Positions 21,291 to 23,915 of a stretch of DNA of 40,733 bases are shown here, in pieces (positions within the stretch are counted from its first letter, which is position 1; the number at the start of each line of letters is the position of its first letter). A program made the translations under genes and the position numbers. The stretch comes from a virus. The stretch lies in the IMG/VR virus record IMGVR_UViG_3300032236_000108, positions 1 to 40,733 of that record. One strand, written 5' to 3'. Below the pieces are notes generated by a model. The model was not told where the DNA came from, did no database searches, and was given only the letters and a program-made list of their open reading frames with translations.

Positions 21291-21638
21291 GTGAATCCAG
21301 GTAGATACAACCTTGCCGTATATAAAGGCACTACTTTTGAACTCAAGCCAGTATGGAAAGTTGGCGGCGTTCCAGTTATCCTTGATGGATATACAGCAGA
21401 CATGCAAGTACGCTATGCCACAGATACTTCTATCATTGTTGAACTTTCAACTTCCAATGGCCGTATCACCATTGACACAGCATACGGAAGAGTTAACCTT
21501 AAACTCACCGCAACTGAAACTGCAGCCCTACCTGCAGGCACATACCAATACGATTTGAACTTAACTAACACTAACGACTCAACAGTCTACAAGATTCTTC
21601 AGGGCACCTTCATTGTGAATCCGAGTGTGACTCAATGA
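21291..21638 (+). CDS. Beta-sandwich tail/fibre-associated protein, 115 aa
   Basis: GTG start preceded by AAGGAGTAG. Beta-rich domain with [39 protein letters not shown] and [20 protein letters not shown], ending [14 protein letters not shown]. This pattern (polymer-like strand pairs, YDL..T...G, ..G...V.P.VT) is seen in phage proteins encoded just before collagen-like fibre genes and in BppU-type baseplate N-domains. ATGA-coupled to the collagen-like gene, so probably a partner or attachment domain for that fibre. Confidence 0.65.
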
Positions 21639-22801
21639 CATCTACACCAGATAGCATCTCAATTGTAGAAATCCCAATTATCACAAACGTCTACGACGTA
21701 GCAGTTACACAACTTGACGTTGTTGAACTTGGACCTATTGGTCCACAAGGCCCAATGGGTTATCAAGGTACAACAGGATATACAGGAGCCACAGGCTCTA
21801 CTGGTCCACAAGGAAGTCAAGGTGTCACAGGTGCAACAGGCTCAACAGGAAACACAGGGTCTACAGGAAGTACTGGAAGCACTGGACCGACAGGTCCAAC
21901 TGGTTCTACAGGAAGCACTGGACAAACTGGACCAACTGGAAGTCAAGGTAACACAGGACCAACAGGTGCTGTGGGCTCAACTGGAGCAACAGGTAGCACT
22001 GGCGCAGTAGGTAATACTGGCGCCACAGGTAACACAGGTTCTACTGGTAACACAGGCGCACAAGGAAACACAGGAGCAACAGGAGGTACAGGTGCTACAG
22101 GCAATACAGGCCCTACTGGTCCTACTGGCTCCACTGGTTCTACTGGTAATACTGGTGCTACTGGTGCAGTTGGAGCGACAGGTGCAACAGGTCCGACTGG
22201 TGCAACGGGAGCAAACTCGACTGTCGCAGGTCCAACTGGACCTACTGGCGCAACTGGTGCAACGGGTGCGCAAGGCAATACTGGCCCAACAGGTTCGACG
22301 GGATTAACAGGTAACACTGGTTCAACAGGTGCCACAGGAAGTACTGGTAATACGGGTCCTACGGGCGCTACAGGCACGACTGGCGCCACAGGTAACACAG
22401 GTGCCACTGGCGCAGTCGGTGCTACAGGAGCCACTGGTGCTCAAGGTAATACAGGTCCGACAGGACCAACAGGTTCTACTGGAGCAACTGGTAACACAGG
22501 TGCGACAGGTGCGACGGGTTCTACAGGATTAACTGGTAATACAGGAGCGACTGGAGCGCAGGGTGCAACAGGACAAACGGGACCAACAGGGGCGACAGGC
22601 TCTACGGGAACGACTGGCAACACTGGCGCCACGGGAGCAACTGGCCCTACTGGCAGCACAGGAGCGACTGGCCAAACTGGACCTACTGGGCCAACAGGCA
22701 GTACTGGAACTACGGGAAATACTGGCGCAACTGGGGCCACAGGAGCGACAGGCGCTGATGCGTCTGCACTCCCAGGCATACTAATGCTAGGCGGAATGTG
22801 A
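21635..22801 (+). CDS. Collagen-like fibre protein (Gly-X-Thr triple helix)
   Basis: A 388-aa probable trimeric fibre. Residues 1-32 form a non-repeat head ([20 protein letters not shown]). From G33 to G373 the protein is 111 Gly-X-Y triplets, 53 before and 58 after a single 7-residue break (GANSTVA, 192-198). Thr occupies Y in 96 of the 111 triplets; X is mostly Ala, Ser, Asn or Pro. No Lys, Arg, Asp or Glu occurs within the triplets. A short hydrophobic tail follows ([11 protein letters not shown]). Start overlaps the preceding stop (ATGA). Collagen-like domains are common in phage fibres, but so pure a Gly-X-Thr pattern is unusual and recalls Thr-glycosylated collagens. A glycosyltransferase gene follows 13 nt downstream. 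Antisense ORFs here are artefacts of the repeat. Confidence 0.9.
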
Positions 22802-22814
22802 TACACTAAGCAAT

Positions 22815-23915
22815 ATGAAGATTGCTGTGTATGCTATAGCAAAGGATGAAATACTCCATTGCGAAAGATGGGCAGAGGCAACCAAAGGTGCGGACTATCG
22901 CATCGTTGCTGACACTGGTTCCACAGATGGCACTCAAGAAAAGTTAAAAGAACTTGGTGTTACGGTACATCAGATTCATGTAAAGCCTTGGCGCTTTGAC
23001 ATGGCACGTAACGCATCATTAGCACTTGTCCCAGATGATGTAGATGTATGTTTGCAGTTAGATATGGACGAAGTTCCAGAACCTGACTTCTTCAAGAAGG
23101 TACGCAAGTACTGGGTACCTGGCTCAGATATGGGCTGGATTTCCATGAAGACAGATGCTAACAAGTGGGAACGAGATAGACTTCATAGCAGATGGAATTG
23201 GATATGGAAATATAATATCCATGAAGTAAACATCTGGTATGGCAAGGGCGAAGCAAAGGACTGCGATGTTCGCCAGGCAGTGATTCACCATCTGCCAGAT
23301 AACAATAAGTCCCGTGGTCAATACCTTGGAATGCTTGAAGAAGGCGTCAAGGAATATAAAGATGATGCACGCATGTGGACATACATGACACGTGAGTATT
23401 TCTTCTATGCCAAATGGGAAGATGTTATCCGTAGCGCAGAAGAAAAAATAAAACTTGGTGGTTGGGACGTAGAGTCCGCCGCCGTCTGCCGATGGGCAGG
23501 AGAAGCAGCACATCAACTTGGTAAAGAAGAAGAAGCCAGGACTTGGTATGAAAAGGGAGTAGAGATACTTCCAGGCCAAGGCGAGCCGCAGTTTAGCGTA
23601 GCCATGGATGCATACCGAAAACAAGAATGGCAGCGTTGTTTAGACGCTGCAATAGACGCCTTAGAGTCTCCCCGCTCTAACCATTACTGCTACGAATCAG
23701 CAGTGTGGGACTGGAAAGCCTACGATTTAGCAGGCATTGCAGCCTTCAACCTCAAGCACATAGATGAGGCAATCACCTTTACGCAAGAAGCGGCAAAGGC
23801 TAATGGTCCAGAGAATGAGCGCATTATGCGCAACCTAGAGTTCTTTAAGAAAGTGAAAGATGAATCATCAGCACACAAGCAAAGTTCTAGCATGGGGAAT
23901 AAACGAAAAGTATGA
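22815..23915 (+). CDS. GT2-family glycosyltransferase with TPR-like C-terminus
   Basis: A 366-aa enzyme, probably transferring a sugar to a protein. Seen: VYAIAKDEILHCERW (5-19), ADTGSTDGT (32-40), the RFDMARN motif (60-66), and the metal/sugar site LDMDE (82-86), all typical of GT2 enzymes of the SunS-like/TPR-glycosyltransferase group. From about residue 190 the protein is helical with TPR-like repeats (EEARTWYEKGVEILPGQGEP, RKQEWQRCLDAAIDALES, FNLKHIDEAITFTQEAAKAN). It directly follows the collagen-like fibre gene, and I propose that fibre as the acceptor. No clear Shine-Dalgarno sequence precedes it, so translation may be coupled to the fibre gene. Its 3' end overlaps the next gene by 56 nt. 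Confidence 0.85.
   Translation: MKIAVYAIAKDEILHCERWAEATKGADYRIVADTGSTDGTQEKLKELGVTVHQIHVKPWRFDMARNASLALVPDDVDVCLQLDMDEVPEPDFFKKVRKYWVPGSDMGWISMKTDANKWERDRLHSRWNWIWKYNIHEVNIWYGKGEAKDCDVRQAVIHHLPDNNKSRGQYLGMLEEGVKEYKDDARMWTYMTREYFFYAKWEDVIRSAEEKIKLGGWDVESAAVCRWAGEAAHQLGKEEEARTWYEKGVEILPGQGEPQFSVAMDAYRKQEWQRCLDAAIDALESPRSNHYCYESAVWDWKAYDLAGIAAFNLKHIDEAITFTQEAAKANGPENERIMRNLEFFKKVKDESSAHKQSSSMGNKRKV

Follow-up and report, generated by a model that had tools for sequence, protein, structure and literature searches.

Whether a phage may glycosylate its own collagen-like fiber is the question raised by the virus record IMGVR_UViG_3300032236_000108 of IMG/VR. The window analyzed here is this whole record (40,733 bases, from a freshwater phage), in which a gene for a fiber composed largely of Gly-X-Thr triplets is followed by a gene for a glycosyltransferase (GT). 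The two are probably a fiber-plus-modifier module of a tailed phage, with the GT putting sugar on Thr of the fiber, and putative O-glycosylation of these residues is the most likely role of the enzyme. The pairing of such GT genes with collagen genes is not a matter of chance. The features on which the argument rests are as follows (aa, amino acids; ORF, open reading frame).

21635-22801, + strand: collagen-like fiber gene, 388 aa, with an N-terminal adapter, 113 Gly-X-Y triplets and a short hydrophobic C-terminal tail (triplet count; PF01391, E=1.8e-52; tail fiber PHROGs)
21635-21730, + strand: N-terminal adapter, 32 aa (by eye; alike in the fiber ORFs of relatives with varying or shrunken collagen, including L422)
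21731-22216, + strand: Gly-X-Y run 1, 54 triplets, residues 33-194 (triplet count)
22217-22228, + strand: break STVA, 4 residues (strict count; a recurrent break form in phage collagens)
22229-22759, + strand: Gly-X-Y run 2, 59 triplets, residues 199-375 (triplet count)
22760-22798, + strand: C-terminal tail, 13 residues (recurrent ...ILMLGGM type)
22815-23915, + strand: GT2 + TPR glycosyltransferase, 366 aa, with DxD at residues 83-85 (Pfam, PHROG, alignment, AlphaFold model)

The fiber and the adjoining glycosyltransferase

With its long Gly-X-Y repeat, matched by the Pfam Collagen family, the product of the first gene is a collagen-like phage fiber. The Y position is occupied by Thr in 96 of the 113 triplets, by Gln in 9, by Val in 4 and by Ile, Met, Asn and Asp in one each, and the whole protein contains neither Lys nor Cys. 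An earlier note on this DNA had given the same number of Thr among 111 triplets, a total that is slightly low, probably because GAN (beside the break) and GAD (at the end) were left out. It was right that there is a single break, to which it assigned 7 residues rather than 4, and that the repeat has no Lys; its statement that no residue of the repeat is charged is off only by the Asp of the final GAD. The Thr codons are mixed (ACA 45, ACT 41, ACG 10) and no 27-mer recurs, indicating that the repeat is not a recent repeat of DNA.

To place this composition, viral collagens were picked by glycine spacing alone: 120 stretches yielded 105 loci (80 listed plus L566-L590), and 98 were kept, the other 7 being glycine-rich or lacking 10 consecutive triplets. 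The fraction of Thr at Y has a median of 0.11 among these 98, as against 0.85 in the window fiber, and reaches at least 0.85 in only one, L156, a GT-bearing relative of the window phage. For bacterial collagens, figures quoted from the review PMC8968730, which also treats glycosylation of BclA, give Thr as the commonest Y residue (31.6% overall and 48.3% in Gram-positives).

Breaks of the type G-x-x-STV-x-G were found in 28 of 78 sister-clade loci and 29 of 120 loci of a Gly-X-Thr sample and, elsewhere, in 7 of 104 Gly-X-[QEK] loci, 4 of 77 new Gly-only loci and 1 of 80 bacterial loci; the phage DSL-LC01 (see below) has one too. A hinge, a nucleation site and a docking site are all candidate roles for this break. 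The hydrophobic tail is alike in fibers of very different length (among 99 ORFs, YDILMLGGM in 22, QDILMLGGM in 9 and WDILMLGGM in 7) and may be an assembly signal.

The ATG of the second gene (22815) follows the fiber stop (22801) with a spacing of 13 nucleotides, so that coordinates and Pfam both confirm the GT2/TPR glycosyltransferase gene which had been claimed at that distance: the protein matches Glycos_transf_2 with 24.7 bits (cut-off 23.3) and TPR_2 with 33.3 bits (cut-off 27). The profile of PHROG 13126, labelled 'beta-1,4-glycosyltransferase' (a linkage given by label only), covers residues 1-357 (E=7.9e-74). In the DxD motif, all 88 aligned relatives have D83, D85 and E86, also the collagen-free L397, L398 and L399 and L422, the repeat of which is shrunken. 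RNA folding at the junction of the two genes gave no signal (z -1.28).

A model of the GT predicted by AlphaFold from the 88 aligned relatives has a pLDDT of 95.9; a model from the single sequence was poor (pLDDT 46) and was not used. Its closest PDB folds are those of SunS (Z 22.3, 261 residues, 2.5 Å; model residues 1-266) and ThuS (Z 21.2, 307 residues, 7.0 Å; model residues 1-354), which share the GT-A + TPR fold and stand above the next match, the fucosyltransferase WrtF (Z 17.1); TarP and TarS are also among the matches. Identity to SunS and ThuS is only 13-15%, however, and the distal end of the TPR part lies in a different position (root mean square deviation 7-9.7 Å over the whole chain). 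SunS and ThuS, which are S-glycosyltransferases by their PDB titles, modify small peptides, the acceptor peptide being encoded next door. The upstream neighbor of the window GT is instead the 388-aa collagen-like protein and, as far as this adjoining gene is concerned, there is no small acceptor; since the fiber is free of Cys, an S-link to it is ruled out.

The presence of TarP and TarS among the matches would agree with an enzyme whose targets are surface glycans of the host or the DNA of the phage and which stands beside the fiber incidentally, and such roles (DNA protection and superinfection exclusion) are suggested for GTs of Nanopelagicales phages in the portions of PMC10202952 that mention GTs and collagen-like genes, each separately. 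We nevertheless regard this explanation as quite improbable, because the best folds are SunS and ThuS (Z 21-22) rather than TarS (14.9), a TPR arm is present, the gene lies in a structural block, and GTs of this family are paired with collagen genes in bacteria as well. From the predicted fold and the pairing we infer that the acceptor would be a peptide.

Pairing with collagen genes in phages and bacteria

GTDB contigs were scanned with the GT alignment and the best 80 relatives (32-39% identical) were retained, which by title are mostly from Clostridia, Oscillospiraceae and Bacilli, with some from Actinobacteria, Sphingomonadales and others. Of the 61 loci that extend 1.5 kb upstream of the GT, 31 have a collagen gene there on the same strand and none has one on the opposite strand, and the signal falls off with distance (the adjacent 1.5 kb further upstream holds one in 2 of 55, each later upstream bin in 1, and the 1.5 kb directly downstream in 3 of 68). 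If both sides are taken together out to 3 kb, 50 of the 80 have collagen, with a median Thr-at-Y of 0.60. The GTs of phages and bacteria were also clustered, with loci left out if they had less than 1.5 kb upstream and no visible collagen. At 60% identity, 26 of 34 clusters include at least one member with collagen no more than 5 kb away, and in 22 this applies to most members; at 50% identity, the corresponding figures are 13 and 10 of 14 clusters. In our view, no other evidence for a functional tie is as strong as this recurrence in bacteria and among GT clusters. In L153, a fragment of a faecal phage, a collagen of 27 triplets likewise lies just upstream of the GT. In two Bacillales, a second gene that by eye resembles another GT2 type adjoins the GT (L617:8708-9931 and L627:8666-9946), and there is no collagen within 3 kb of the GT in either.

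The tie was also approached from the collagen side, with two sets of viral contigs picked by collagen pattern: 50 Thr-rich contigs, for which 49 were taken in listed order from the 59 loci reaching a Thr-at-Y of 0.6 and L257 (0.596) was added, and 50 Thr-poor contigs, namely the first 50 among 54 loci with a Thr-at-Y of less than 0.2. The Thr-rich set excludes L240 (a second stretch of the same contig) and 9 later loci, including the GT-bearing L265 and L271. Whole contigs were searched with the GT profile because fetched stretches undercount GTs lying beyond them, as on the contigs of L165 and L206, which carry a GT elsewhere. Strong matches to the GT family (364-609 bits) were obtained on 9 of the 50 Thr-rich contigs and on none of the 50 Thr-poor ones (Fisher p=0.0026; 8 of 49, p unchanged, when L257 is dropped), whereas a Pfam GT2 of any kind was found on 15 and 14, respectively, indicating that the tie is with this GT family and not with GT2 genes generally. 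On the fetched stretches themselves, a strong match accompanies 9 of 82 loci with Thr-at-Y of at least 0.4 and none of 98 below (where 2 are weak). One of the 9 strong GT frames, on the 57.5-kb virus contig of L216 (G053:32176-33231), holds an in-frame TGA, which is either a recoded stop or the mark of a broken gene.

A third count was made in 160 loci that had been fetched by means of two capsid proteins, irrespective of GT and collagen (a sample, consisting of the best 80 of 507 and the best 80 of 598 relatives). The capsid-to-adaptor interval is complete in 50 of these, the other 110 being left out; 30 carry both collagen and GT, none collagen alone, 6 GT alone and 14 neither (Fisher p=4e-8, with kinship uncorrected though the loci are related). 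This blind count replaces an earlier one, in which all 52 capsid loci with 4.5 kb downstream carried a GT but loci found via the GT itself were included; a mixed table of 97 loci (71 with both, 11 with GT only, 15 with neither, none with collagen only) has the same selection bias and, as a count, is cited for its collagen-free cases only. Co-occurrence of Gly-X-Thr fibers with this GT, which the earlier note had put forward as a computational check, is thus seen in 30 of 30 capsid-anchored collagen loci as well as in the contrast between the two sets of contigs and in bacteria, and its second check, a higher fraction of Thr at Y where the GT is present, came out in the same direction (median 0.76 in 150 non-independent GT loci vs 0.10 in 97 without a strong match).

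Several results weigh against a strict partnership. i) Among the bacteria, 30 of the 61 relatives that could be judged lack collagen in the upstream 1.5 kb, the other 19 of 80 being not judgeable. ii) In the mixed set, 11 of 97 complete intervals have the GT without collagen; they represent 9 distinct contigs, two counted twice (L397, L398, L399, L405, L406, L407, L416, L465 and L505), and L422 keeps a GT (74% identical) with a shrunken collagen repeat. iii) On 23 contigs of 4.5-42 kb that are free, or nearly free, of collagen, PF01391 detected none; 9 of these bear the GT (the contigs just named except L416, together with L422) and 14 lack it. On the latter 14, a scan without a positive control of its own found no GT. 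iv) With all matches at E<=0.001 counted, the contrast between Thr-rich and Thr-poor contigs weakens to 13 vs 4 of 50 (p=0.03), weak matches of up to 100 bits being present on 4 contigs of each set, and 41 of the 50 Thr-rich contigs, some of them short fragments, are without a strong match. v) The remote GT relatives of phages PaBG (33%) and Erwinia phage Alexandra (24%) are encoded close to a head maturation protease, and the stretch does not contain 8 Gly-X-Y triplets in a row. The suggestion that the GT is the fiber's 'own' in an exclusive sense is therefore not supported.

Such cases could mean that the targets of the GT are other proteins of the virion (the capsid, other fibers or tip proteins), collagen being one of several fiber types swapped in beside it. 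This would suit the GT of L422 and its retention in 6 of 20 collagen-free capsid-anchored loci, and glycosylation of the mycobacteriophage capsid and tail tube, as summarised in PMC12619734, offers a parallel. It would also suit the glycine-rich genes (23-36% Gly) that lie between collagen and GT in L008, L047, L064, L065, L066 and L124, with the GT following; as a guess from composition, their products may be tail adhesins or tips. We consider this explanation unlikely, however, since strong GT matches are tied to Thr-rich and not to Thr-poor collagens, and the same tie is found in bacterial genomes, though some of the loci there may be prophages. Modification of the collagen by the GT remains our preferred reading, with the qualification that the enzyme probably also takes other fiber or virion proteins, because collagen-free relatives keep it.

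A tree of 69 distinct capsid rows from the mixed 97-locus set, with L212 as a long-branch outlier, shows 7 changes of collagen and 3 of GT. In it the collagen-free L465 is sister to the collagen-bearing L466 and both have the GT; fibers are swapped while the GT stays, and the enzyme must therefore have a use without a Gly-X-Y repeat. In the 5 independent pairs that differ in collagen, the GT differs the same way in 2, the opposite way in 0 and not at all in 3, so small a number that the phage family alone cannot settle the matter. This scarcity leaves some room for a purely structural explanation, in which Thr at Y stabilizes the helix alone via hydration, the collagen is unglycosylated and the GT stays beside it through inheritance rather than for a function. 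The frequency of Thr at Y in bacterial collagens would fit, as would a Thr-at-Y of at least 0.6 in 10 of the 97 viral collagens whose fetched stretch holds no strong GT match. The recurrence of the pairing in 26 of 34 separate GT clusters, from phages and bacteria alike, makes this explanation very improbable.

Precedents and a proposed mechanism

The nearest precedent is the pair SgtA/BclA3 of Clostridioides difficile. As described in the part of PMC7157674 that concerns the enzyme, SgtA is a protein of 358 aa with GT-A and TPR domains, its gene adjoins bclA3, and in vitro it places beta-O-linked N-acetylglucosamine (GlcNAc) on Thr of collagen-repeat peptides, Ser being accepted too. The window GT shares with it a GT2/GT-A domain followed by a C-terminal TPR in about 360 aa and a gene adjoining one for a Thr-rich Gly-X-Y protein (Gly-Pro-Thr repeats in BclA3). 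The two systems differ in that the SgtA gene lies upstream of its collagen gene and the window GT downstream, and in that the C. difficile pair belongs to the spore surface and its activity was measured, whereas the window pair would belong to the virion and its activity is predicted. By domain architecture and gene context, rather than by alignment, the window pair would work like SgtA/BclA3. We infer Thr as the probable modified site from SgtA together with the Thr bias; GlcNAc, taken from SgtA, is a first guess at the sugar. Relative to SgtA/BclA3, what is new here is that the pairing is phage-borne, fiber-linked and widespread.

GmaR of Listeria, which according to PMC9638930 has 637 aa, comprising an N-terminal GT domain, TPR, a linker and an antirepressor, and transfers GlcNAc onto flagellin, shares the order of GT domain and TPR, and its GT domain is matched by the GT family profile (E=1.9e-11). 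The window GT, with 366 aa, ends after the TPR and has no C-terminal antirepressor domain; GmaR also differs in its substrate, flagellin. On the fiber side, EPclA and its relatives, collagen-like tail proteins of Escherichia coli prophages, are also phage fibers with a collagen helix; as reported in the sections of PMC3368898 that deal with them, they differ in being charged, Pro-rich and not mainly Thr, and the recombinant protein tested was not glycosylated. In the open-licence literature searched, as far as its text was accessible, we found no glycosylated phage collagen described. A further counterpart is DSL-LC01, a 129-kb Actinomycetia phage, in which one gene run contains a GT family member (36% identical) together with a pair of Gly-X-Thr collagens, one having Thr at Y in 23 of its 34 triplets and the other in 27 of 42; it differs from the window in that the collagen genes are separated from the GT by a YHYH gene and one encoding a tryptophan halogenase (L152:6433-8004; PF04820, E=5.5e-50). 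It is conceivable that the halogenase adds a further chemical decoration to the fiber.

We propose that the GT would act in the host cytoplasm late in infection. Its TPR arm would hold the newly made, still unfolded repeat, so that, to judge from this arm, action would precede trimerization, and the GT-A domain would move one sugar (perhaps GlcNAc) from a host-supplied nucleotide donor to the hydroxyl of Thr, perhaps also of Ser, in many triplets. The chains would trimerize afterwards, giving a glycosylated triple helix on the virion. From general knowledge of glycosylated collagens, the sugar might take the place of hydroxyproline in hydrating and stabilizing the fiber, and might alter its surface. 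No hydroxylase was seen among the scanned window proteins, which are those of part of its ORFs and were not searched with profiles aimed at hydroxylases. The Thr-glycosylated triple-helical fiber that the earlier note had proposed is thus supported in part, by both computational checks and by the experimentally tested precedent of SgtA/BclA3; the glycan itself, a gain in stability and antigenic or receptor variation are its putative parts.

We give an even chance to the broader view that Gly-X-Thr collagen and GT2-TPR O-glycosyltransferase form a mobile module common to phages and bacteria, phage fibers of this kind being receptor-binding glycoproteins with a sugar coat made by a phage enzyme. 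If the proposal is true, i) phages glycosylate a collagen fiber with an enzyme of their own, ii) the mostly-Thr Y position in one group of prokaryotic collagens is explained, iii) one enzyme type connects phage fibers with the glycosylated collagen on the surface of bacterial spores, and iv) small enzymes come into view for the glycosylation of recombinant collagen. Relatives that retain the GT without collagen offer a natural route to its other uses.

Surrounding genes of the phage

Three further features belong to the region of the pair.

19919-20956, + strand: major capsid protein, an independent anchor (PF13252; phrog_1357)
21291-21638, + strand: LtfC-like beta-sandwich protein directly upstream of the fiber (weak, below the Pfam cut-off, E=4.7e-4; phrog_1084, phrog_3304)
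25018-25908, + strand: SU10-adaptor-like protein, with which the interval ends (weak, below the Pfam cut-off, E=4.4e-5; phrog_7578)

Since terminase, portal, capsid, LtfC-like and adaptor-like genes surround it, the fiber-GT pair lies inside the structural block of a tailed phage. An LtfC-like gene is found upstream of the collagen in the relatives whose stretch covers that site, and it is kept where the collagen is absent (L482) or shrunken (L422), suggesting that its product may serve the fiber base rather than the collagen.

At 35384-35764, there is a weak match, below the Pfam cut-off, to the gene 49 protein of mycobacteriophages L5 and D29. Together with the likeness to DSL-LC01, a lake phage of an Actinomycetia bacterium, it hints at an actinobacterial host. 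Two HNH endonuclease genes (27923-28408 and 28743-29474) lie downstream of the fiber region, and a phage gene at 38360-38932 has a proteasome-subunit match over 58 residues (PF00227, E=6.9e-7).

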